A stretch of 29,968 nucleotides of DNA from an uncultured Lachnospiraceae bacterium. GTDB lineage: Bacteria > Bacillota_A > Clostridia > Lachnospirales > Lachnospiraceae. Shown here piece after piece: positions 6,606 to 29,968 of the stretch. The notes beneath the pieces are model-generated. The model searched no databases and was not told where the DNA came from. It saw only the letters and a program-made list of their open reading frames with translations. A program made the translations under genes and the position numbers. The stretch's first letter is position 1. Each line of letters begins with the position of its first letter. Location: assembly GCA_947178085.1 (NCBI GenBank), contig CAMWWS010000003.1, positions 1 through 29,968 of the forward strand, in the 5' to 3' direction.

Positions 6606-9053
6606 TTATTTTACCTGCATTCGTTTATCAATCAAATGGTAAATCATACTGATTACGAAGCATAATATGCCACAGATAAAGAAGCTTAAAGCGTGCCCTA
6701 ATGTATTATCGTAGCTTATATCAATCAAAATCAATTTTGCTACGCTGAGCATTGAAAGGAACAAACCATATAATCTAAATGACTTAACGTAAAATCTAAA
6801 GCCAAGCACAATGCTGATAATGGCGAATAAAAATGCTGATATGCTGATTACATAATTTGCAGCTTCATAAGAACATAATATGGTAATAAGCAGAACGGTA
6901 AGTTTAACTCCAATGTAGATTCCCGACCATAATGTTTTATATTGCTCAATCAGATTCTTTGAATTAACCATAAAAATCAGTATCGCCAGCAAAACAAGAA
7001 TGAAATGGCATATCTCATTGTCAACCACCATAACTTTATATAAGCTTACAACCATGAGTATTGCATTAATTGTCCGGGTAACATTTACACTGTGTTTTTC
7101 TGTTTGCAGCGTTTGAAAATCCTTTACAAACCTGCTCTTCATCGCAAACATATTCAAAGCCGATACAACGGTAAGCGTGATTGTCGTATCAACATCGTAA
7201 CTTACATTCAGATCATCAAACATATATGTCAGGCTTATAATAATGAAGAAAAACCCTGCCACGTAGGATAGAAGCTTGAATATACTGTTGTATTGCTCTT
7301 TTTTAACATACATACAGACTCCCAGAATGGCAAAAAACAACAGCCCGAGGCAGAGATACTCGACAGAATACTTTAAATCGGATAAACAATAAATTACTGC
7401 CGTCAGTAGACTCATATATTTATAGACGCAATCATCTTTATAATATCCCAGCAGTATAAAAAGAATCATCACAAATGACACTCCGATATGACTAAGGAGA
7501 AATGGAATCATAGATACGGATATGATAAATACCGGCAGGGTGAAACACTGTATCAGGACTTTTCCGTCGTCTTTCCTGTTGTCAAATTTTTTCTCCGCTA
7601 CGGCGAGCAAGGCAACGCCTATTATTATAAAAATATATCCTCTAATCGTATCCCAGCAATATCCTATATTATAAATTCCTATATTATCCGGGCCACGCCA
7701 AGATATTGACCTATATGTCATATTACTGATATACAGCATCATCAATATGGTATTTATAATCATAAAAACGCCGAAGCCTATATTTTTTTCTTTTAGCTTC
7801 GCAGCAAGGAAAAGTACGAATTGCAGTATCAGGAAAAACAGCATTATCCCCGCTATTGCCTCTACCTTATACTCAGCCCACCAATTCCTGTTATATCCAG
7901 GCGCTTCTGCCCAACCGGCCCACGAGAATGCGGGGCGCAAACTATAAGCTCCCACCCATATCTGAAATACATTAATGCAGTTAAAAACATTGTTTACGAC
8001 ATTTTTATGGAATTCCCTGCTATAATTGGTTACATAGAAAATAGAAGCAGTCACCACGAAGAACAGACTGAGCAGAAACATCATAGCATAGTCAAATTCT
8101 TCCACGCACAGGACAACACCGAAGAACAAAGCAATCGTAATACCGCACTGCCCTATTATCTGAAATATCCTGTCCTGCCATTTTGATAAATAACAGACAA
8201 ATACTGCCCAGACCAAAATGAAAATGTATAGCGTAATATCTCCTATCGCCTTAAAATACAGATTAGTCAGAAGCAGCGATATGTAAACCGCACCGACGCC
8301 GCAACCGCTGATTGCCAGATACAGCTTGTTATTATTCTTTCTTAATTTCAACAGACCAAATGCCGTAAGCATAATACTCACAACATACATCGCTATCATT
8401 TTAATCGTATCTGTAATGAATGGCGCTAATAAAGTTGCAAATAAAATAAAGCTTATAAAAATCAGAACCGAAGCAAATATCCCCATCCATGATTTTCCGA
8501 TCATGTTTTCCAAATCTTTTGGCTTATTCACCTTATTCTGAAGCTGAATGTATGGAGCTTGCGGCTGCGGCATTGCGCTCTGATACTGAATATTCGATGC
8601 CTGCTGTTGTGGCATTGCATTCTGATAAGGAATATTTTCTGCTTGCATTTGCGGCATTACACCCTGATACTGATTATTTTGTACTTGCGGCTGTGGTATT
8701 GCACCTTGATACTGAATATTCAATGCCTGTGGCTGCTGCTGTACATTCTGAGGCTGGATATATGGTTCTTGAATCTGCGGTTTTACACTCTGAGGCCGGA
8801 TATCCTTTATCTGCTCCTGTATACCCTCCCTCAGCATATTCAGCTGATTATTCATATAATCGATTTCCGTCTGTAAATACTTGATTTTATAATTCAGTAT
8901 CGAATTGCTGACATTCTGATTACTACACTCATAAATCAAATCATTCAGCTGTTTTCTGTCTGCAAGCAGACGGTTTTCGTAATTTAGGATTGAAGCTTCA
9001 ATATTATTCAGATTTTTATTATGTGCATTATCGCTATTTATATCTTTAAACAT
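6606..9053 (-). CDS. DUF2339 family polytopic membrane protein
   Basis: This protein of about 815 residues starts with a coiled coil (about 12-85), followed by a Pro/Gln-rich linker (about 88-173) with 14-residue repeats. The membrane part opens at ENMIGKSWMGIFASVLIFIS (182-201) and contains about 20 helices to the C-terminus. This layout and the conserved entry sequence match DUF2339, whose function is unknown. The ATG at 9053 is preferred to an in-frame ATG at 9158 because a good promoter (-10 at 9104-9109) lies between them. The ribosome site is weak (GGGGAG about 14 nt away). It is transcribed alone, divergently from the SCP2-like gene. Confidence 0.85.
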   Translation of the reverse strand: MFKDINSDNAHNKNLNNIEASILNYENRLLADRKQLNDLIYECSNQNVSNSILNYKIKYLQTEIDYMNNQLNMLREGIQEQIKDIRPQSVKPQIQEPYIQPQNVQQQPQALNIQYQGAIPQPQVQNNQYQGVMPQMQAENIPYQNAMPQQQASNIQYQSAMPQPQAPYIQLQNKVNKPKDLENMIGKSWMGIFASVLIFISFILFATLLAPFITDTIKMIAMYVVSIMLTAFGLLKLRKNNNKLYLAISGCGVGAVYISLLLTNLYFKAIGDITLYIFILVWAVFVCYLSKWQDRIFQIIGQCGITIALFFGVVLCVEEFDYAMMFLLSLFFVVTASIFYVTNYSREFHKNVVNNVFNCINVFQIWVGAYSLRPAFSWAGWAEAPGYNRNWWAEYKVEAIAGIMLFFLILQFVLFLAAKLKEKNIGFGVFMIINTILMMLYISNMTYRSISWRGPDNIGIYNIGYCWDTIRGYIFIIIGVALLAVAEKKFDNRKDDGKVLIQCFTLPVFIISVSMIPFLLSHIGVSFVMILFILLGYYKDDCVYKYMSLLTAVIYCLSDLKYSVEYLCLGLLFFAILGVCMYVKKEQYNSIFKLLSYVAGFFFIIISLTYMFDDLNVSYDVDTTITLTVVSALNMFAMKSRFVKDFQTLQTEKHSVNVTRTINAILMVVSLYKVMVVDNEICHFILVLLAILIFMVNSKNLIEQYKTLWSGIYIGVKLTVLLITILCSYEAANYVISISAFLFAIISIVLGFRFYVKSFRLYGLFLSMLSVAKLILIDISYDNTLGHALSFFICGILCFVISMIYHLIDKRMQVK
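8571..8738 (-). repeat. 42-bp tandem repeats encoding a Pro/Gln-rich linker
   Basis: Four imperfect units begin at 8571, 8613, 8655 and 8697, exactly 42 bp apart, with degenerate partial copies on both sides. Each encodes 14 residues close to PQPQAxNIQYQxAM. The repeats link the coiled coil to the membrane domain of the DUF2339 protein. A repeat count that is a multiple of 3 nt would vary linker length without breaking the frame. Confidence 0.9.
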
Positions 9054-21946: not shown

Positions 21947-22324
21947 TTACTTCATCAATTCGTCAGTCAGCCGTATGATTTCCGGTGCAACCTTTTCCCG
22001 CTGCTTTTTTGTAATATGAATATAGAGCGGATAGGCGAGAACAATTCCGATAATTCCCACTATACCTATAACTATACCGGGAAGCATCAATCCCTCCCAC
22101 ACCATAGTACAACTCATGCCAACGCCGAAAACCAAAGTGCTTATAACACCGACAATAATGGACACAGCCGTGCCGGTTTTTGTCACGCTCCGGTCAAGCC
22201 TGCGCAGCCGTTCCATCTTATCTTCCTCTTCCGTAGGCGGCATATATTTTTCACGGATACTCTTTATTTCAGCCTGCTGTGAAGCTGAATAGGTATAATT
22301 GAAAACTTCTTTTTTCTCTTCCAT
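21947..22324 (-). CDS. Small two-helix membrane protein sharing a module with the protein at 25620-25991
   Basis: I do not recognise a named family. The 125-residue protein has a charged N-terminus (about 1-48, with EEEDKMERLRRLDRSV) and two membrane helices at about 50-100. They contain GVGMSCTMVWEGLMLPGIVI followed by GIVGII. The same GVGMxxTMVWEGLMxxGI pattern occurs in the protein at 25620-25991, so the two are paralogous over this module. The C-terminal tail (HITKKQREKVAPEIIRLTDE) is basic. It is the last gene of the two-component operon, 31 bp after the eight-helix membrane gene. Confidence 0.78.
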   Translation of the reverse strand: MEEKKEVFNYTYSASQQAEIKSIREKYMPPTEEEDKMERLRRLDRSVTKTGTAVSIIVGVISTLVFGVGMSCTMVWEGLMLPGIVIGIVGIIGIVLAYPLYIHITKKQREKVAPEIIRLTDELMK

Positions 22325-22355: not shown

Positions 22356-23267
22356 TTATAACTTATTGATTTTCTTTAACTGCAATGACGACTTTACAAT
22401 CATATACACAGCAATACCCAATACAAATGTACAAACTCCGCCTCCTGTCGCGCCCGTCATGGCCTGCCTGAATGAAAAATCATCTTTATCCCCAAACCGG
22501 GTGACCATAGCCGTCTCAAGCGACAGGATTGACACCATTGCAGATACAAGATTGATTACTTTTGCTGCCGACAAAACAGGGCTCCCATGCCTGCGGAACT
22601 TAATAACATTTACGCTCGCAATTATCACACAATAAAAAGAATATGCAGCCATTGCATAAATCAATACTCCCGGATAATCGTAACTTTTATTTTGGTGTAC
22701 CATAAAAACAACAATTCCGGTTAATGCCTGATTCATCAACAACAATATAATACCACACATACGGTAACGCCTTATCTCTGCTTCCAGATGATTCACAGCT
22801 GTTCTAACCTTCCCACGGCGAAAGAGCAGAAAACGCATAACCGCCAGCAGAATATAGTAGACAGCAACAGAAATAAACCATATAGAGCGATAATAAATTC
22901 CCGATGCCATTTTCATAACAATATAAAGCAGATTAATTACAAAACCCATATAAAGGGAAATTTCAGTACGAAACCTTACATCCTCTAAAAATCGGGCGCC
23001 TAATGAAGTATTTGACAGTTTTTCCATCAGCGGATGCTTTTCAATGCCTGACTGGACAGACTTCACGATACCGACCATACGTGGTATACTCGTACAGGTA
23101 ATGACCAAAGCATAAGCGGACATAACATATGATAAGTAAGCAAGTGCCCCTTCGTTTTCTGTTACCAGTATAAAGGTCACCAATGCAAAAGACGGCACGG
23201 CAATTAAAACTGTGGGCAGCGGCGGCAGGAAAAATATTTTTTTCAGAATCTGTTTAAGCTGTACCAT
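22356..23267 (-). CDS. Polytopic membrane protein of the two-component operon
   Basis: This 303-residue protein has about eight membrane helices from residue 15 to 295. I do not recognise its family. The segment PRMVGIVKSVQSGIEKHPLM lies between helices 2 and 3, and ATGGGVCTFVLGIAVYMIVK forms the last helix. The start overlaps the end of the histidine kinase gene by 14 bp and carries its own GGAG about 8 nt upstream, so translation is coupled. The position suggests that it assists or is regulated by the kinase, possibly as an accessory sensor or effector. No transporter or enzyme motif is visible. Confidence 0.78.
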   Translation of the reverse strand: MVQLKQILKKIFFLPPLPTVLIAVPSFALVTFILVTENEGALAYLSYVMSAYALVITCTSIPRMVGIVKSVQSGIEKHPLMEKLSNTSLGARFLEDVRFRTEISLYMGFVINLLYIVMKMASGIYYRSIWFISVAVYYILLAVMRFLLFRRGKVRTAVNHLEAEIRRYRMCGIILLLMNQALTGIVVFMVHQNKSYDYPGVLIYAMAAYSFYCVIIASVNVIKFRRHGSPVLSAAKVINLVSAMVSILSLETAMVTRFGDKDDFSFRQAMTGATGGGVCTFVLGIAVYMIVKSSLQLKKINKL

Positions 23268-24351
23268 TTTCTTTTCTCCTGACCCTTACGGTAAAAGTGC
23301 TGCCTTTTCCTACTTCACTCTGCACCGATATATCCCCGTCTACAATATCCACTACCCTTTTCACCAGAGCCAGCCCCAAACCGTTGCCCTGTGTTGAGTG
23401 GGATGTATCTCCCTGATAGAACTTTTCAAAAATATGTCTGCCGACCTCTGAGCTGATACCGCAGCCTGTATCACTCACCTGCACAACTGCAAAACCGCCG
23501 TCCGATTTCAAACTCACCGAAACGCATCCTCCCGGTTCCGTGAATTTCATAGCATTGGAAAACAGGTTATTCCATACCAGTGTCAGAAGTTCCGCATCAG
23601 AATCAATGAAAACCTCCTCCTCAATATCCGTATCAATCTCGATTTTTTTCTTCTCCCAAACATTTTCAAAATTTAAAAGACATTCGCAAATCTGCTCTCC
23701 AAGGTTGTAGGTCTGCCACTGTGGGTATATCTGCTGGTTTTCAAGCTTATTCAGCTTCAAAATATTTGTGATCAGATCAGCAAGCCTGCGTGATGTTTCC
23801 GTGATTGCTTTTGCATACTCCAGCCGTTTTTCTTCCGGCAAAATCGGGCTTTGCAGCATTGTCCCATAATTCTGCATAACAGATAACGGCGTCTTCAACT
23901 CATGAGATACATTGGCAATAAAGTCTGTGCGCAGCGTTTCTGTCCCGGAGAGTTCGCCTGCCATCTTATTAAAATATTCAATAATGACATTAAATCCGGC
24001 TGCATCATAAATAGCAGGAAGCGGTTCAATCCTCACTGAAAATTCACCACGCATAATCCTTTCAGCCGCATTGACAATCCGCCTGACCGGACGCTCAACC
24101 ATAAACTTACGACGAACTGCATCTATTATTGTAAAAAATATGCTTATCATAATAACATTGATAAAGGTTATAACCGCAGCATGGCTGATATTGCCTTCCG
24201 TGTAAGCCACGCCCAAATCCTGCTCTATCAGTCGTAAAAACACAATCATACAGCCTGTAATGGCAAAAGCTATAACTGAGAAAAAAGTAAGATACCGCCA
24301 CAAGACCGCCAGTAAGCGGTCTTTGGCTGTTTTTTTATCATTTCTGCTCAT
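23254..24351 (-). CDS. Membrane sensor histidine kinase
   Basis: This 365-residue kinase has two membrane helices (about 21-42 and 57-79) with only a short external loop of about 15 residues, then a HAMP region (about 80-135). The H-box is FIANVSHELKTPLSVMQNY with H150. The N-box (NNLFSNAMKF), G1 (DTGCGIS), F-box (FEKFYQGDTS) and G2 (GNGLGLALV) are all intact, so it should be active. The short external loop suggests sensing in the membrane or through a partner, such as the adjacent membrane proteins. It overlaps the regulator gene by 4 bp. Confidence 0.95.
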   Translation of the reverse strand: MSRNDKKTAKDRLLAVLWRYLTFFSVIAFAITGCMIVFLRLIEQDLGVAYTEGNISHAAVITFINVIMISIFFTIIDAVRRKFMVERPVRRIVNAAERIMRGEFSVRIEPLPAIYDAAGFNVIIEYFNKMAGELSGTETLRTDFIANVSHELKTPLSVMQNYGTMLQSPILPEEKRLEYAKAITETSRRLADLITNILKLNKLENQQIYPQWQTYNLGEQICECLLNFENVWEKKKIEIDTDIEEEVFIDSDAELLTLVWNNLFSNAMKFTEPGGCVSVSLKSDGGFAVVQVSDTGCGISSEVGRHIFEKFYQGDTSHSTQGNGLGLALVKRVVDIVDGDISVQSEVGKGSTFTVRVRRKENGTA

Positions 24352-25019
24352 TTCACCACCGCCTTATATCCCAAACCGTGGACAGTGACAATTTCAAAGT
24401 CATCACAGCCGGAGAATTTATCCCGCAGCTTTGTCATATATACATCTACAGCACGCGGCGCGGCATTTGATTCCGTATCCCAAAATTCGTCCATAAGCTG
24501 TGAGCGTGTAAAGGTTTTTTTCGGATAAGAAAGCAGCTTATAGAGAATATTGAATTCCCGCATCGTCAGCGGAATCTCTTCATCGCCCACAACAGCCGTA
24601 CGCTCGTCGGAATCCAGTACCAGACTGCCGATTTCCAGCCTATGGCTGTTTGCTATCTTCGCACGGCGCAGAAGTGCGCCAATCCGTAAGCACAGTTCAT
24701 CAAGATCTACCGGTTTTATCATATAATCGTCAATGCCGATACGATAGCCTTTCTGTTTGGAAGCAAAATCGTCCCTCGCCGTCATAAAAAGAATAGGAAT
24801 ATTTTCATCCAGTCCCCGCACCGTCTTTGCGAACTCATAACCATCAATCCCCGGCATCATAATATCAGACACAATCAGATCAAAGGAATTATTATACATG
24901 GTATCATAAGCGCTGCCGGCATTCAGACAGCCGGTTGCATCATAACCGTTCTGATTTAAAAAAGAGCAGACGGTATGATTCAGTTCCGTATCATCCTCAA
25001 CCACTAAAACTTTGAGCAT
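24348..25019 (-). CDS. OmpR/PhoB-family response regulator
   Basis: This 223-residue protein has a receiver domain with acidic D9/D10, the phosphoacceptor D52 in LIVSDIMMPGIDGYEF and the TARDD switch, then a winged-helix DNA-binding domain (about 125-223) with LTMREFNILYKLLSYPKKTF and the ending IVTVHGLGYKAV. It activates or represses genes once phosphorylated by the adjacent kinase. The ATG at 25019 is preferred to an in-frame ATG at 25061 because GGAGG is 8 nt before it. Its probable targets are direct-repeat promoters nearby. Confidence 0.95.
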   Translation of the reverse strand: MLKVLVVEDDTELNHTVCSFLNQNGYDATGCLNAGSAYDTMYNNSFDLIVSDIMMPGIDGYEFAKTVRGLDENIPILFMTARDDFASKQKGYRIGIDDYMIKPVDLDELCLRIGALLRRAKIANSHRLEIGSLVLDSDERTAVVGDEEIPLTMREFNILYKLLSYPKKTFTRSQLMDEFWDTESNAAPRAVDVYMTKLRDKFSGCDDFEIVTVHGLGYKAVVK

Positions 25020-25039
25020 AGTGAGTACCTCCGACTTTT

Positions 25040-25055
25040 TTCTATATTTTATCAT
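25040..25055 (-). promoter_or_regulatory. Extended -10 promoter of the two-component operon
   Basis: On the minus strand TATGATAAAAT contains a TGA-TAAAAT extended -10 about 30 nt before the response regulator start. There is no clear -35. Confidence 0.45.
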
Positions 25056-25102
25056 AGCCATAGAAGCAATAAAAGTACGTCACTCCATTTTCAATACTTT
25101 TG

Positions 25103-25147
25103 AAAAATTAACCCACACTGCATAATAACTGTGCGGGTTAATTTTTT
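25103..25147. terminator. Bidirectional intrinsic terminator after the 11-mer repeat gene
   Basis: AAAAATTAACCCACAC (25103-25118) and GTGCGGGTTAATTTTTT (25131-25147) form a long stem with one mismatch and a 12-nt loop, flanked by A/T runs on both sides. On the minus strand it ends the 25620-25174 operon before the regulator promoter. Confidence 0.85.
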
Positions 25148-25173
25148 CTTTACGCTATGTGTTAACAATCCAC

Positions 25174-25572
25174 TTAATGTTTACCCGCATTTTTGCTTGC
25201 CTCAATACTCGCTCTTGCAATCTCCTGACTTGCTTTTATGCTTTCCTGTCCGATGTCAGTACCGGTACCCATTTTAGTCCGATTTTCGATTTTTCCTTTA
25301 CCGGCAGCTTCGCGTGCAGCCTGTTCGTTTTCAAGGCGCTTCTTCGCATCTTCCACAGTCTCTCCCTCATGAGTCAGGAACTTATCGACAAACTTATCAG
25401 TCATCTTATTAAAACCTTCTACAACTCCATTTTCAATCTTCTTATAGCCGCCGACAACACCATCCTCAATCTTCTTATATCCACCAACAACTCCATCCTC
25501 AATTTTCTGGAAACCTTCCGTAACACCCTCTGCTATTTTTTCATTAGTTTTTTTCAAATTAGATTCTGACAT
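25174..25572 (-). CDS. Amphipathic 11-residue-repeat protein
   Basis: The 132-residue soluble protein has four consecutive 11-residue repeats at about residues 12-55: KIAEGVTEGFQ, KIEDGVVGGYK (twice) and KIENGVVEGFN. Similar motifs are known from Gram-positive proteins of unclear function and resemble LEA or lipid-droplet 11-mers, which form amphipathic helices lying on membranes. The rest is charged (THEGETVEDAKKRLENEQAA) with a glycine/threonine-rich end. AGGAGG lies 7 nt before the ATG. It follows the membrane-protein gene by 47 bp and ends with a terminator, so the two form one operon under the cls-like promoter. Confidence 0.8.
   Translation of the reverse strand: MSESNLKKTNEKIAEGVTEGFQKIEDGVVGGYKKIEDGVVGGYKKIENGVVEGFNKMTDKFVDKFLTHEGETVEDAKKRLENEQAAREAAGKGKIENRTKMGTGTDIGQESIKASQEIARASIEASKNAGKH
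25411..25542 (-). repeat. 33-bp tandem repeats in the amphipathic-repeat gene
   Basis: Four successive 33-nt units encode the 11-residue repeats. The two central units encode identical residues but differ at synonymous positions, which suggests selection on the protein and argues against a very recent duplication. Confidence 0.8.
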
Positions 25573-25619
25573 CTTTTTACCTCCTAGATTTTATTTTTAG
25601 ATTTTTTACTAATATTTAC

Positions 25620-25991
25620 CTACTTCAAACCCTTACAAAGCGGAATCAGACAGAGCAACAATACAATACCGATTATGCCGACAATAATGCCCTGAACCAT
25701 CAGACCTTCCCAAACCATAGTCATGCACATACCTACACCGAGCACCAATGCGCCGACAATGCCAAGTGCCACGGTTCCCACGGCTTTACCGCTAACCTTT
25801 ATTGCCGGCTTGCCTTTCATTTTGCGGCGCACAACAAGCATCACAAGCAACACTACAATGCCGACAGCTGCCATAACAACGCCCTGCGTAAATGCGTTCC
25901 ACTCCGGCAGCAGACACATGCACATACCGATTGCAAACATGATTCCTCCTATAGTGCTAAGAATCAGTGTAACAAAATTTTCTTTCTTCAT
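25620..25991 (-). CDS. Small membrane protein with two copies of a two-helix module
   Basis: The 123-residue protein has about four membrane helices. The N-terminal half (GGIMFAIGMCMCLLPEWNAF, then TQGVVMAAVGIVVLL) and the C-terminal half (GALVLGVGMCMTMVWEGLMV, then QGIIVGIIGIVLLL) align with each other, so the protein is an internal duplication. The second half also matches the protein at 21947-22324. A basic loop (RRKMKGKPAIKVSGK) joins the two halves. Family function is unknown. The ATG at 25991 is chosen over 26027 because GGAGG is 8 nt upstream and the promoter -10 lies at 26039-26044. It opens the operon with the repeat protein. Confidence 0.82.
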   Translation of the reverse strand: MKKENFVTLILSTIGGIMFAIGMCMCLLPEWNAFTQGVVMAAVGIVVLLVMLVVRRKMKGKPAIKVSGKAVGTVALGIVGALVLGVGMCMTMVWEGLMVQGIIVGIIGIVLLLCLIPLCKGLK

Positions 25992-26038
25992 GATAAATAC
26001 CTCCATATGTTTTTTGTTTTCTTTCATTTGATGTTTGT

Positions 26039-26078
26039 ATCATATACCCTAAATGTTTTTAAAAGTTTTGTGAAATGT
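26039..26078 (-). promoter_or_regulatory. Conserved promoter/operator of the 25620-25991 operon (copy A)
   Basis: On the minus strand an ACATTT box (26073-26078) starts 34 nt before the -10 TATGAT (26039-26044). Three 11-bp units fill the interval: ACATTTCACAA, AACTTTTAAAA and ACATTTAGGGT. The expected -35 is AACTTT, no match to TTGACA, suggesting activator dependence. The same layout occurs before the cardiolipin synthase gene. Confidence 0.65.
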
Positions 26079-26112
26079 TTCTGTTTTATTAAAATAATGG
26101 GGAAAATACTTT
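26053..26112. repeat. About 60-bp repeat, copy A
   Basis: Positions 26053-26112 match 27671-27730 with about 7 mismatches in 60. The repeat spans the last codons of the cardiolipin synthase gene and the operator boxes of the following operon. Confidence 0.85.
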
Positions 26113-27618
26113 CATTATTTCTGCCAGTAATCTTTGCCAGCTGCGCATAATGCCCCTGTCTTTTCTTATTTCGCCTGACTGCCTCAATGTTTCCAAAAAA
26201 TCTGCCTTTATATCGGTAATACAATCCGTATCAAACATCCACGCACCACACTCAAAATGATGGACAAGGGAACGGTAATCCATGTTGATGGTTCCACAGA
26301 CAGCAAATTTATCATCACATATATAATTCTTGGCATGAATGAAACCAGGAGTATATTCATAAATTTTTACACCGTCTTCCAGAAGCACTTTATAATTTGA
26401 ACGAGTCATTAAGAATACGGTCTTTTTATCCGGAATATGCGGAGTAATAATCCTAACATCCACACCTTTTTTAGCAGCAAGGCGTAATGCAGACAATATC
26501 TCCCGGTCGCAGATCAGATAAGGTGTTGTGATGTAAAGATAGTCTTTTGCGGCATTTATCATATTCAGATATACATTTTTGCCGATGGTATCTGTATAGA
26601 TTGGCGTAGGACCTGAACCAAACGGAATCACAATTCCCTTGCCATTTTCTAAACCGGGTTTTATATCCATATACTCTGCATAGTCAATCGGCTTTTTACT
26701 CTGTGTATTCCAGTTTACAAGGAACATCGACATTAGGTTTTTCACTGCTTCGCCTTCAATTTTTACTGCGGTATCTTTCCAATGTCCATGTTTTTTAATA
26801 GCATTTATATATTCATCCGCCAGATTAATGCCGCCAGTAAATCCCACACGGCCATCAATCACAGTAATTTTGCGGTGATCACGGTTGTTGTGGATGTGAG
26901 AAAGGACGGGAGCAAACTTGTTGGCAATAGCACACTGAATTCCTTCATTACACAGTATTTTATGGTAATGCCACGGAAGTGTCGCAATACACCCAAAATC
27001 ATCATACATAAAATAAACCGAAACACCCTGCGCAGCCTTTTCCTTTAATATTTCATGAATAGGATTCCACATCTGACCTTCCTGCACAATAAAATATTCC
27101 ATAAAAATAAATCGCTCTGCTTTTCTCAGTTCATCCAATAGCGCGACGTGAAAATCTTCACCAACCGGATAGTAAGTCGTTTTGGAATTTCCATAACAGG
27201 GCATCCCGGCAGTATCATATAAATAATTTGCCTGCAGCCATGCATCTGTGTCCTGTTCCTTCAAATCATTAATCAGCGTAGTCTGCTGCTGGTATTTTTT
27301 CATGCATTTCGCTGCCTTTTCTGCGCGGGCATACTCTTTCCTGCTTGTATCATTACTTGAAAGAAGCATAAAAATAAATGCGCCTAAAACAGGAAGAAGA
27401 AAAAGAATAATAAGCCACGGCATTTTAAATTCCGGTATTTCATCCCTGTTAATTAAATAAATCAAAACCCCAAAATGAAATATCCATGCCATAATCGTGA
27501 TAGGTAAAAAGAATTCATACAATAGAACAAATACTGCTAAAAGTTGCGCAAACTCTAGCAAAATGCAAAATATCCCTACAAAAAAACGCGAACTGATAAA
27601 TCGAAATAACTTACCCAT
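26089..27618 (-). CDS. cls: Cardiolipin synthase (phospholipase D family)
   Basis: The 509-residue protein has hydrophobic segments at about 11-35, 37-56 and 66-86, then two phospholipase D catalytic motifs: H248-R-K250...D255 in RDHRKITVIDG and H428-A-K430...D435 in FIHAKNYICDDKF. Each is followed by the usual GG(I)N or GTIN. This matches Cls, which joins two phosphatidylglycerols to make cardiolipin at the membrane. The ATG at 27618 is preferred to 27648 because AGGAGG is 7 nt upstream and the promoter -10 lies at 27657-27662. It sits next to membrane-protein and two-component genes, suggesting envelope stress control. Confidence 0.95.
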   Translation of the reverse strand: MGKLFRFISSRFFVGIFCILLEFAQLLAVFVLLYEFFLPITIMAWIFHFGVLIYLINRDEIPEFKMPWLIILFLLPVLGAFIFMLLSSNDTSRKEYARAEKAAKCMKKYQQQTTLINDLKEQDTDAWLQANYLYDTAGMPCYGNSKTTYYPVGEDFHVALLDELRKAERFIFMEYFIVQEGQMWNPIHEILKEKAAQGVSVYFMYDDFGCIATLPWHYHKILCNEGIQCAIANKFAPVLSHIHNNRDHRKITVIDGRVGFTGGINLADEYINAIKKHGHWKDTAVKIEGEAVKNLMSMFLVNWNTQSKKPIDYAEYMDIKPGLENGKGIVIPFGSGPTPIYTDTIGKNVYLNMINAAKDYLYITTPYLICDREILSALRLAAKKGVDVRIITPHIPDKKTVFLMTRSNYKVLLEDGVKIYEYTPGFIHAKNYICDDKFAVCGTINMDYRSLVHHFECGAWMFDTDCITDIKADFLETLRQSGEIRKDRGIMRSWQRLLAEIMKVFSPLF

Positions 27619-27656
27619 ATGGTTTCCTCCTATAAAAGAATCAAGCATATCGATTT

Positions 27657-27696
27657 ATTTTATCGCGTCTTTGTTTTTAAAATATTTGAGAAATGT
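27657..27696 (-). promoter_or_regulatory. Conserved promoter/operator of the cardiolipin synthase gene (copy B)
   Basis: On the minus strand ACATTT (27691-27696) starts 34 nt before the -10 TAAAAT (27657-27662), the same distance as in copy A. The units are ACATTTCTCAA, ATATTTTAAAA and a diverged third. No -35 is visible. Confidence 0.65.
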
Positions 27697-27730
27697 TTCA
27701 GTTTTATTAAAATAATGGTGAAGATACTTT
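27671..27730. repeat. About 60-bp repeat, copy B, with remnant of a cls 3' end
   Basis: This stretch matches 26053-26112. On the minus strand it contains AAA GTA TCT TCA CCA TTA TTT TAA, encoding KVSSPLF-stop, against KVFSPLF-stop at the real end of cls. It lies between the phosphatase-family gene and the cls promoter, where no such gene exists, so it looks like the tail of a lost second cls copy. Confidence 0.7.
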
Positions 27731-27740
27731 TTATATATAA

Positions 27741-28523
27741 TTATACGTCACAACACCCTCTCAACTCATCATGAACCTTCCCATTCGTAGCCACAACGCT
27801 GCTTTTTTTCAGAAGATTCAACGGCTCTCCCGCGAAATCCGTTATCCGCCCTCCTGCTTCCACAACCAGCAGCATCCCCGCAGCAAAATCCCACGGACTA
27901 AGAAGCGGTTCAAAGAATCCTCCTGTACGGCCACACGCCACATAAGCCAAATCTAACGCTGCCGAACCTGTCCTGCGAATATCCTGACCTTTTTCAAAAA
28001 CTCTTTGAATACGCCGAAAATTTTCGTCTGCCAATTCCTTATTATAGGGAGATGTACCAACAGCAATAATGGTTTCGCTTAAAGACCCAGCTTCGGACAC
28101 ATGAATAGGATTTCCGTTTAAAAAGCTTCCCCTGCCTTTTTTAGCATAATAAATATCCTCTCTGAAAGGGTCATAAATGACCCCCATAGTAATCTCTCCC
28201 TTGTCATATAATCCCAAGGACACAACACTGTGCTGATAGTCATGGATGAGATTCGTCGTTCCATCTACCGGGTCCAAAATCCAGTAGGTGTCCCCCGTCA
28301 TCTCATGCAGCCCTTCCTCCTCGCCTAAGAATTGAATCTCCGGAGCCAGACTGCCCAATTCCTCGGACAGAAACTTCTGAATGTCCGTGTCCACCTGCGT
28401 AACATAATCTGCCGGACCTTTCACTTTAATATGCGCTGCCCTTTCCCTGTTTTCTATAAAAGCTTTTGTTCTCTTAATCAATTCAAGAATATCTTCCATT
28501 GCAGTCTTATCTTTTACTTCCAT
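27741..28523 (-). CDS. suhB: Inositol monophosphatase family protein
   Basis: The 260-residue protein has the Mg-dependent sugar-phosphatase motifs: GEEEG around E69-E70, DPVDGTTNLIH (84-94) and SPWDFAAGMLLVVEAGG (from about 209), with D212 as the other metal ligand. Members hydrolyse inositol phosphate or related sugar phosphates, and some are nucleotide phosphatases or act on NADP, so the substrate is open. The first ATG has a weak ribosome site (AAGGATGG, some distance upstream). It is apparently a single gene. Confidence 0.88.
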   Translation of the reverse strand: MEVKDKTAMEDILELIKRTKAFIENRERAAHIKVKGPADYVTQVDTDIQKFLSEELGSLAPEIQFLGEEEGLHEMTGDTYWILDPVDGTTNLIHDYQHSVVSLGLYDKGEITMGVIYDPFREDIYYAKKGRGSFLNGNPIHVSEAGSLSETIIAVGTSPYNKELADENFRRIQRVFEKGQDIRRTGSAALDLAYVACGRTGGFFEPLLSPWDFAAGMLLVVEAGGRITDFAGEPLNLLKKSSVVATNGKVHDELRGCCDV

Positions 28524-28659: not shown

Positions 28660-29554
28660 TTAAGTCCATTCCTTTTTATCTTTATCCCATTGTAAATGAA
28701 ACTTGTCATTTTTAGAAATAGTCTCAACAACCGGCATCAGTAAAGCTTTCGACAGCTCTATCGCTTCCGTGAATTCTACCTTTACCATTGCGCTCTTTTT
28801 CTTGATAAAAGAATTCCATCTATTTTTCCTGCTTAAGTCTTCGGTAAATTCTGGTTCAAATGCGACAATATCATCAAAGCCTGTCCCTCTATGTGTAAAG
28901 GTTTCTATGATAGCATTTTGAAGCTTTTCCCCATCCAAATTATAATTAGCGGACAATACAAAAATGTCATAGAAATCCTTGTATCTTCCATTTGCAAGAC
29001 CAAGGGACACAAACACTTCAAACTTTTCTGCAATCACAGAGTAGATTGAGTATGCATACACCTCTGGCACATCCATATCAAGAAGTACAGGGAAATTCAT
29101 CTTCATTCTTTCCGGAAATACTATATCTCCAAATCCAATATCAATCGACACCGGCACCTTGGTTCTATCCAAATAGGCAGTTATAGACACATTAACGCCA
29201 TGATACTCCTTGAATTCTATAATATTGATAACCTCCAATGAATCCAAATCAAATCGAAGTGCATCATCACACTCTATTGAAAAAATATTTTTGAACACTC
29301 TCTTCATTTCCTCGGCATCATTTGGAATATGTTGCGCTAATAAGTCTATGTCCATTGTTGCTCTAGCAAAATTACCATCAAACAATGCATAAAAAAATAC
29401 CGTCCTTTAATGTAAATCGCTCTGCATATTCTGAAATAGACAAGCGATAAATCGTCCGCTCTAAACCATACGTTACTAATTCATCCTGCATGGTTCTTCC
29501 ATCTTCTTTTGCCAGATTCTTTAATCTATCCTTTACCGATATTGCACTTATCAT
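28660..29554 (-). pseudogene. abiEii: AbiEii/AbiGii-type nucleotidyltransferase toxin, frameshifted
   Basis: The gene starts at the ATG complementary to 29552-29554 with MISAISVKDRLKNLAKEDGR and reads to RFTLKDGIF before a stop. The remainder, ALFDGNFARATMDIDLLAQH and on, continues in the +1 frame (28660-29385). The junction is a run of seven T on the minus strand (29391-29397); six would restore GIFYALFDG. The metal-binding D-x-D (MDIDL) is in the second part, so frame 1 alone is inactive. This is the toxin of type IV AbiE systems, which nucleotidylates targets such as tRNA. It may be a real lesion, a phase-variable run or a sequence error. A TTG restart could make an N-terminally short form. 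Confidence 0.8.
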
Positions 29555-29968
29555 ACGAGTACCTCCAGATATGTCTTCATTATGTCACTGCACTTAAGCA
29601 GCTCTGCATACCGTAGCAGTCTATTCAGATTTCTGTCCTTTCTTCTGAGATAATTGACAAGAATTTCTTTGGTTTCCTCAATTCCTACCTTCTCTCTGTA
29701 AAGCACAATATCAACTACTGTTTTTTCTATATCATAAATTTTAAATTGATTCTTTCCTTCCTGTACATTCCTTATCCCAGTCTCATACCGCTTATTTGCA
29801 TAATAATAGACCGAAATCACCGGCCAATCCGGCATTGTGGAAATTTTAGTTTTTCTATGAATCGCCACATCTACTGCATCCGGTATATAGGTCGTCAGAT
29901 TATAATACGCTGCCGCACTCATCAGACATACCACTCCCTTTGGAGCGTATGCAGAAACATAATAAATT
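29551..29968 (-). CDS. abiEi: AbiEi-type antitoxin/transcriptional repressor, 5' end beyond the window
   Basis: About 139 C-terminal residues are visible. The frame stays open to the window edge, so the gene continues beyond it; internal GTG or ATG codons near 29934 are not the real start. APKGVVCLMSAAAYYNLTTY, KTKISTMPDWPVISVYYY and KIYDIEKTVVDIVLYREK match the AbiEi antitoxin C-terminal domain; the winged helix is presumably outside the window. The antitoxin represses the operon and counteracts the toxin. Its TGA overlaps the toxin ATG (ATGA, 29551-29554), as is typical of the pair. Confidence 0.85.
   Translation of the reverse strand, partial: IYYVSAYAPKGVVCLMSAAAYYNLTTYIPDAVDVAIHRKTKISTMPDWPVISVYYYANKRYETGIRNVQEGKNQFKIYDIEKTVVDIVLYREKVGIEETKEILVNYLRRKDRNLNRLLRYAELLKCSDIMKTYLEVLV

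Follow-up and report, generated by a model that had tools for sequence, protein, structure and literature searches.

The promoters of a cardiolipin synthase gene (cls) and of the membrane-protein operon that follows it in the window (the whole 29,968-nt stretch of DNA analysed) are very probably targets of one and the same OmpR/PhoB-class response regulator, most likely the local one acting with its partner histidine kinase, and would form part of a membrane/phospholipid regulon. A shared OmpR-class activator at 11-bp repeats, possibly the regulator encoded nearby, had been proposed in an earlier, sequence-only reading of this DNA, and the proposal gains support from conservation of both operator and spacing, from the genes lying downstream, from the co-occurrence of operator and regulator orthologues, and from a changed recognition helix. 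The repeat units, their spacing, the lack of a -35, their conservation, the gene set and the co-occurrence can all be read directly from the DNA; what the regulator would do at these sites is predicted from them.

Operator, promoters and genes in the window

Both window promoters lie on the minus strand and have the same layout, in which an operator of four 11-bp direct-repeat units (consensus ttTTAAcAattC-nnAAACAtttC-ttaAanaTTTc-naAAACA) is followed by 9 nt and then by a TATAAT-like -10 element (Table 1). The sequence-only reading had placed ACATTT exactly 34 nt before each -10 hexamer, and the distance holds at both places (ACATTT at 27696 and 26078), with equal spacing for two hexamers that differ from each other, as it had said. 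Its 11-bp phased repeats are likewise present, but they extend further than it described, since there are four units and these reach 5' of the ACATTT taken as the start. Neither promoter has a -35 at 16-18 nt from its -10: compared with TTGACA at that spacer the best agreement is 1/6 for cls and 0/6 for Mem123, in keeping with the earlier statement that no -35 is recognisable. A sigma-70 scan of 24900-27800 returned 9 matches, against 10.2 in shuffled sequence, none of which uses either of the described -10 elements. Two of the nine are on the plus strand, one within each operator copy (26068-26095 and 27686-27713, with 9 and 10 of 12 positions agreeing). Mem123 promoters also have in common a ACAGACATCAAGTGAG-like block just 3' of the -10 (window 26018-26044, and the related loci L001, L074, L075 and L080), presumed to be their first transcribed bases.

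Table 1. Features of the cls-regulator locus, in window coordinates
Feature	Position	Strand	Description
24-nt copy of cls 3' end	27707..27730	-	Last codons and stop; 22/24 nt identical to 26089-26112; extends into first operator unit
cls operator	27672..27712	-	Four 11-bp units TTTTAATAAAAC TGAAACATTTC TCAAATATTTT AAAAACA; full sequence (27712-27672) TTTTAATAAAACTGAAACATTTCTCAAATATTTTAAAAACA
cls -10	27657..27662	-	TAAAAT, 9 nt downstream of cls operator
cls, cardiolipin synthase	26089..27618	-	TIGR04265 349.8 (cut-off 290); PLDc domains
Mem123-operon (membrane-protein operon) operator	26054..26094	-	Overlaps the cls stop codon at its first bases; full sequence (26094-26054) TTTTAATAAAACAGAAACATTTCACAAAACTTTTAAAAACA
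Mem123-operon -10	26039..26044	-	TATGAT
Mem123 (label used here)	25620..25991	-	Small membrane protein by inspection
ApoL132 (label used here)	25174..25572	-	Small protein with 11-residue repeats (33-nt repeats in the DNA)
Strong hairpin between ApoL132 and regulator gene	25103..25146		Inverted repeat; fold z-score -5.64
OmpR-class response regulator	24348..25019	-	PF00072 and PF00486; proposed operator reader
Partner histidine kinase	23254..24351	-	PF00512, PF02518
g303	22356..23267	-	No Pfam family; next to kinase also in L001 and L004, elsewhere in cluster in L003
g125	21947..22324	-	Small protein related to Mem123; relatives with own operator, e.g. L004

The genes run in the order cls, Mem123, ApoL132, response regulator, kinase, g303, g125. 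The cls product scores above the TIGR04265 cut-off and is a cardiolipin synthase on that measure; by inspection its likely start is the second ATG, at 27618 and after AGGAGG, while the listed open reading frame starts at 27648. No family was found in Pfam or NCBIfam for Mem123 or for ApoL132; homologues of Mem123 number 4991 at E<=1e-3 among 5379 candidates. A GVGM-C-TMVWEG motif is common to Mem123 and g125. The regulator belongs to the OmpR/PhoB class, having a receiver domain (PF00072, 85.8 bits; cut-off 30.2) and a Trans_reg_C output domain (PF00486, 66.3 bits; cut-off 26.2), and a tandem direct-repeat operator with units of about 11 bp has the form expected for that class, its binding by the local regulator being predicted. 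Autoregulation in the window is doubtful, and co-transcription of the regulator gene with the operon uncertain, because a terminator-like hairpin (probably a terminator or attenuator) precedes the regulator gene and no operator of its own was found in the window, where only two sites exceed the threshold. A similar hairpin is seen in L001 at about 7020-7047, and in L001 and L020 the regulator gene has, by inspection, its own TATAAT-like element without an operator.

Conservation of operator and spacing

The locus order of the window is fully kept in L001 and, except for a recognisable ApoL132, in L004, while L003 keeps the locus in part, in another order and with a more distant regulator (61%). 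A clear operator precedes cls in L001, L002 and L003 and a weak one in L005 (16.6); none lies before cls in L006. The L004 operator precedes PlsY, the gene directly before cls, and further sites in that locus precede an ABC-transporter pair (22.6) and g125 (19.2). Genomes G002 and G005 have cls on one contig and the Mem123-ApoL132-regulator block on another, with an operator at each. A partial operator (29/62 columns) remains behind cls in G002 (L002; C2:55639-55667), which together with the full operator on the other contig perhaps reflects a rearrangement that broke within the operator.

The sequence-only reading suggested searching the genome for the pattern; such a search, run in relatives, recovered spacing-conserved operators in both a family and a class sample. 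Model R1, built from 13 training sites with the -10 included, was searched in the six source genomes and in 200 genomes of the family, and model R2, which comprises the operator only (41 columns, the -10 left out), was searched in 391 genomes of the class; the filters were stricter in both samples, so weak sites may be lost. With R1 the source genomes yielded 27 matches at E<=0.1, and 27/200 family genomes had matches at E<=0.001; with R2, 19/391 class genomes had matches at E<=0.001. R2 produced 25 matches, two of which had served as training sites (both from G001); among the remaining 23, 13 reach a position weight matrix (PWM) score of at least 30, and these are spread over 10 genomes other than G001. 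TAnnnT is present at offset 50 in 12 of the 13, and in 11 a homologue of a locus gene follows within the next 250 nt. The corresponding counts for sites scoring below 30 are 0/10 and 0/10; at such low-scoring sites the highest-scoring PWM position does not always coincide with the model match. When the TAnnnT offset is profiled for the 14 class-sample sites scoring above 25, offset 50 accounts for 12 and any other offset from 41 to 65 for at most two. The R1 family sample at PWM>=25 yields 24 rows (28/41 sites beyond G001 covered), 21 with a -10 and 19 with a locus-gene homologue, although R1 includes the -10 and these rows are not an independent test of it; L046 and L071 scored one identical site, counted once, which leaves 23 distinct sites, and a second L046 site, before g125, lies outside the PWM scoring.

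The two samples together, with L064 included, provide 32 distinct non-training sites at PWM>=30, those from R1 having come from a model that contained the -10. TAnnnT stands at offset 50 in 29 of them, and a TTGACA-like hexamer (at least 4/6) at a 16-18 nt spacer in none (0/32), a layout that fits Class II activator-dependent promoters, in which the predicted activator site would lie over the -35 region. Likeness to TTGACA of 4/6 does occur at other spacers (18 sites at 13 nt, 3 at 20 nt and 2 at 14 nt), and the hexamers at 13 nt are within unit 3, nearer to the -10 than a -35 would lie. A set of 35 sites gives the same unit consensus as the window promoters, followed by 9 variable nt and TAtaAT; the set was hand-picked, omitting L064, L062, L065, L069 and L070 and including L020, L023 and L028, which are from model source genomes, yet are not training sites.

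In single relatives the genes behind the operators are PlsY and the ABC-transporter pair (L004) and a PlsC-like acyltransferase (L061, from genome G137, which showed no regulator orthologue). Counting against the regulon reading, different genes follow some sites: a CmpB-like ABC protein and a radical SAM protein (L054), an epimerase (L065) and a SnoaL-like protein (L076). L064 scores 33.5 but has neither a -10 nor a locus gene behind it, and no fitting gene was found downstream of the site in L064 or L068. The genes behind the L023 and L079 sites have no family; they encode similar-looking proteins of 484 and 454 aa, with no Pfam match, each after an operator and in different genomes (L023:1578-3032, L079:28-1392). 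The gene set (cls, PlsY, the ABC pair, the PlsC-like enzyme and the small proteins) suggests a membrane-stress or membrane-remodelling regulon, perhaps one responding to membrane or peptide stress.

Which regulator reads the operator

Orthologues of the window regulator in the family sample share 59-94% identity with it, the next matches reaching at most 50%; they occur in 37/200 genomes, the operator in 27, and both in 23. With G001 left aside, the family sample contains 22 genomes with both, 4 with a site only, 14 with an orthologue only and 159 with neither (Fisher 4e-16), and the class sample 11, 7, 15 and 357 respectively (Fisher 3e-10); the Fisher values ignore kinship and are therefore too small, but the pattern of co-occurrence is still clear. 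All 10 class-sample genomes with a site at PWM>=30 have an orthologue. In the family sample sites are found in 16/18 genomes with a close orthologue (at least 70%) and in 7/19 with a more distant one (59-66%). All 16 aligned orthologues carry Y194 and K197 in the recognition helix, where all 6 paralogues carry H and R; from PhoB, we take these positions to be DNA contacts.

That another OmpR-class regulator, not the neighbour, reads the operator is unlikely in the light of this co-occurrence and helix signature. It would be consistent with the many OmpR-class regulators per genome and with the exceptions on both sides: no site at E<=0.001 was found in 14/37 orthologue-bearing genomes of the family and 15/27 of the class, and site genomes without an orthologue number 4/27 and 7/19, the latter seven scoring at most 25.5. 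Within 2.7-6.5 kb around the regulator, 5 of the 14 site-less family genomes have operator-like sites scoring above 12 (scores 14.1 to 29.2, the L103 site being downstream of the regulator) and 9 have none. Operators also lie 48-122 nt 5' of the orthologous regulator gene itself in L058, L069 (weak, only 23.9) and L070 (without TAnnnT), whereas none scoring above 12 was found within 2.0-2.2 kb of six paralogues (44-50% identity), an uneven comparison in that these stretches are shorter than those around the orthologues. A reading of the sites as Pho boxes, with the phosphate regulator PhoB/PhoP binding them and the genes forming a phosphate response, is quite improbable. Tandem TTAACA-type boxes are Pho-box-like units, and the operator units resemble them; PhoB is the best NCBIfam match of the local regulator, but both matches fall under the curated cut-offs (NF053854 165.6 against 270, TIGR02154 151.3 against 296.2). 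The 11-nt direct-repeat units are also the format of the PHO box as given in an excerpt of PMC4415409. Against this, no phosphate gene is among the annotated downstream genes (a subset of the sites is annotated), and the sites accompany orthologues of the local regulator.

ECF sigma promoters have a spacing of about 16 nt. An ECF promoter with the GAAAC in unit 2 as its -35 has a practically negligible probability, as GAAAC lies about 32 nt from the -10, and the -10 is TATAAT-like and at a fixed place. There remains the thought that the window similarity is mere sequence duplication or gene conversion around cls, with no shared regulator, which is highly improbable as an account of the operator and yet explains part of the likeness. 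The repeat (26054-26112 against 27672-27730) is identical at 53/59 positions, a level far above the best self-matches of that length in dinucleotide-shuffled versions of the 4.4-kb region (40 shuffles; maximum 37, mean 34.0), and the likeness ends before the -10 (11/24 identical after nt 59). The earlier figure of 88% over 60 bp thus describes a real similarity but overstates the regulatory likeness, because the upstream 24 nt duplicate the 3' end of cls. Outside the operator this copy has 18 nt, which match at 16/18, and no such copy is present in the 300 nt preceding cls in any of the six close relatives L001-L006 (best match 10-12/18), so that recombination between the flanks is probable. 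About 30 of the 59 nt look recombination-derived; most simply, a short gene conversion or duplication between the cls flanks transferred the end of cls together with the first unit. The third unit of the window cls operator is of the cls type, AAATATTT, as before cls in L001 and L002, and that of Mem123 is AAAACTTT, as in L001 Mem123; each being kept as in relatives, the third unit was evidently not copied by conversion. Relatives that lack the cls-end copy (L001, L003) have the operator at both places, unlinked loci have it too, and the -10 spacing is kept where the intervening 9 nt differ. For the operator itself the relatives' sequences thus refute duplication, which stands for the left ~30 nt. 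The ECF, Pho-box and pure duplication readings were accordingly set aside, on the evidence of the spacing, the PhoB cut-offs and the relatives.

Predicted mechanism and related systems

Under control by the local regulator, phosphorylated molecules would bind head to tail on the four 11-bp units, as two dimers, and would cover the place where a -35 hexamer would sit. Given a TATAAT-like -10 placed exactly 9 nt beyond the operator and the lack of a -35, the promoter would fire only upon contact between regulator and RNA polymerase. The output would be cardiolipin synthase and small membrane proteins, joined in single relatives by phospholipid acyltransferases and an ABC exporter. Binding, phosphorylation and an inducer are all presumed in this scheme, and the presumed activation could be repression.

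The type of mechanism is already known from OmpR/PhoB-class regulators; for the regulon itself no description was found among the titles and abstract beginnings of the open-licence literature. In PhoB/pho box promoters the -35 is replaced. The PhoB/pho box systems of E. coli and others resemble the present one in their receiver plus winged-helix regulator, in their 11-nt direct-repeat units and in the strict spacing from box to core promoter, as an excerpt of PMC10294691 puts it. In contrast to PhoB, the unit sequence here is different, there are four units per promoter, and the genes concern membrane lipids instead of phosphate. The recognition helix is changed as well (H to Y, R to K, at contact positions of PhoB), and regulator and kinase score under the PhoB/PhoR cut-offs.

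The control of membrane or antimicrobial-peptide genes is a feature in common with the Firmicute envelope-stress two-component systems GraSR, BceRS and LiaFSR, and the kinase here has, by inspection, a short loop between two hydrophobic stretches, as in systems of that type. LiaR is of a different output class from an OmpR/PhoB-type regulator, and the gene set here differs from those of the envelope-stress systems, as does the operator in a comparison covering LiaFSR. Excerpts of the literature describe control of membrane or antimicrobial-peptide genes by GraSR (PMC3128592) and a part for LiaFSR and cls in the enterococcal daptomycin response, with LiaFSR linking membrane damage to lipid remodelling and cls1 transcription unaffected in daptomycin-treated E. 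faecalis (PMC13123819). We regard as evenly balanced the broader proposal that this is an undescribed and widespread membrane-homeostasis regulon of gut Clostridia, in which a regulator clade with its own helix code (Y194, K197) reads a four-unit operator and controls cardiolipin synthase, phospholipid acyltransferases, ABC exporters and two unnamed small-protein families, as a counterpart of LiaFSR-type systems. Such a counterpart would fall in a group where these responses are little studied: Lachnospiraceae and related gut Clostridia encounter bile acids and host peptides, and little was found in print on their membrane regulation. The predicted operator, regulator and gene set are directly testable, two large unnamed sets of small proteins gain a working context, and an operator set at a constant distance from the -10 turns out to be recognisable throughout a class by its sequence alone. 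Elsewhere in the window (28660-29934), an AbiEii-type nucleotidyltransferase (PF08843) lies beside a second open reading frame (29551-29934), possibly as a toxin-antitoxin pair.
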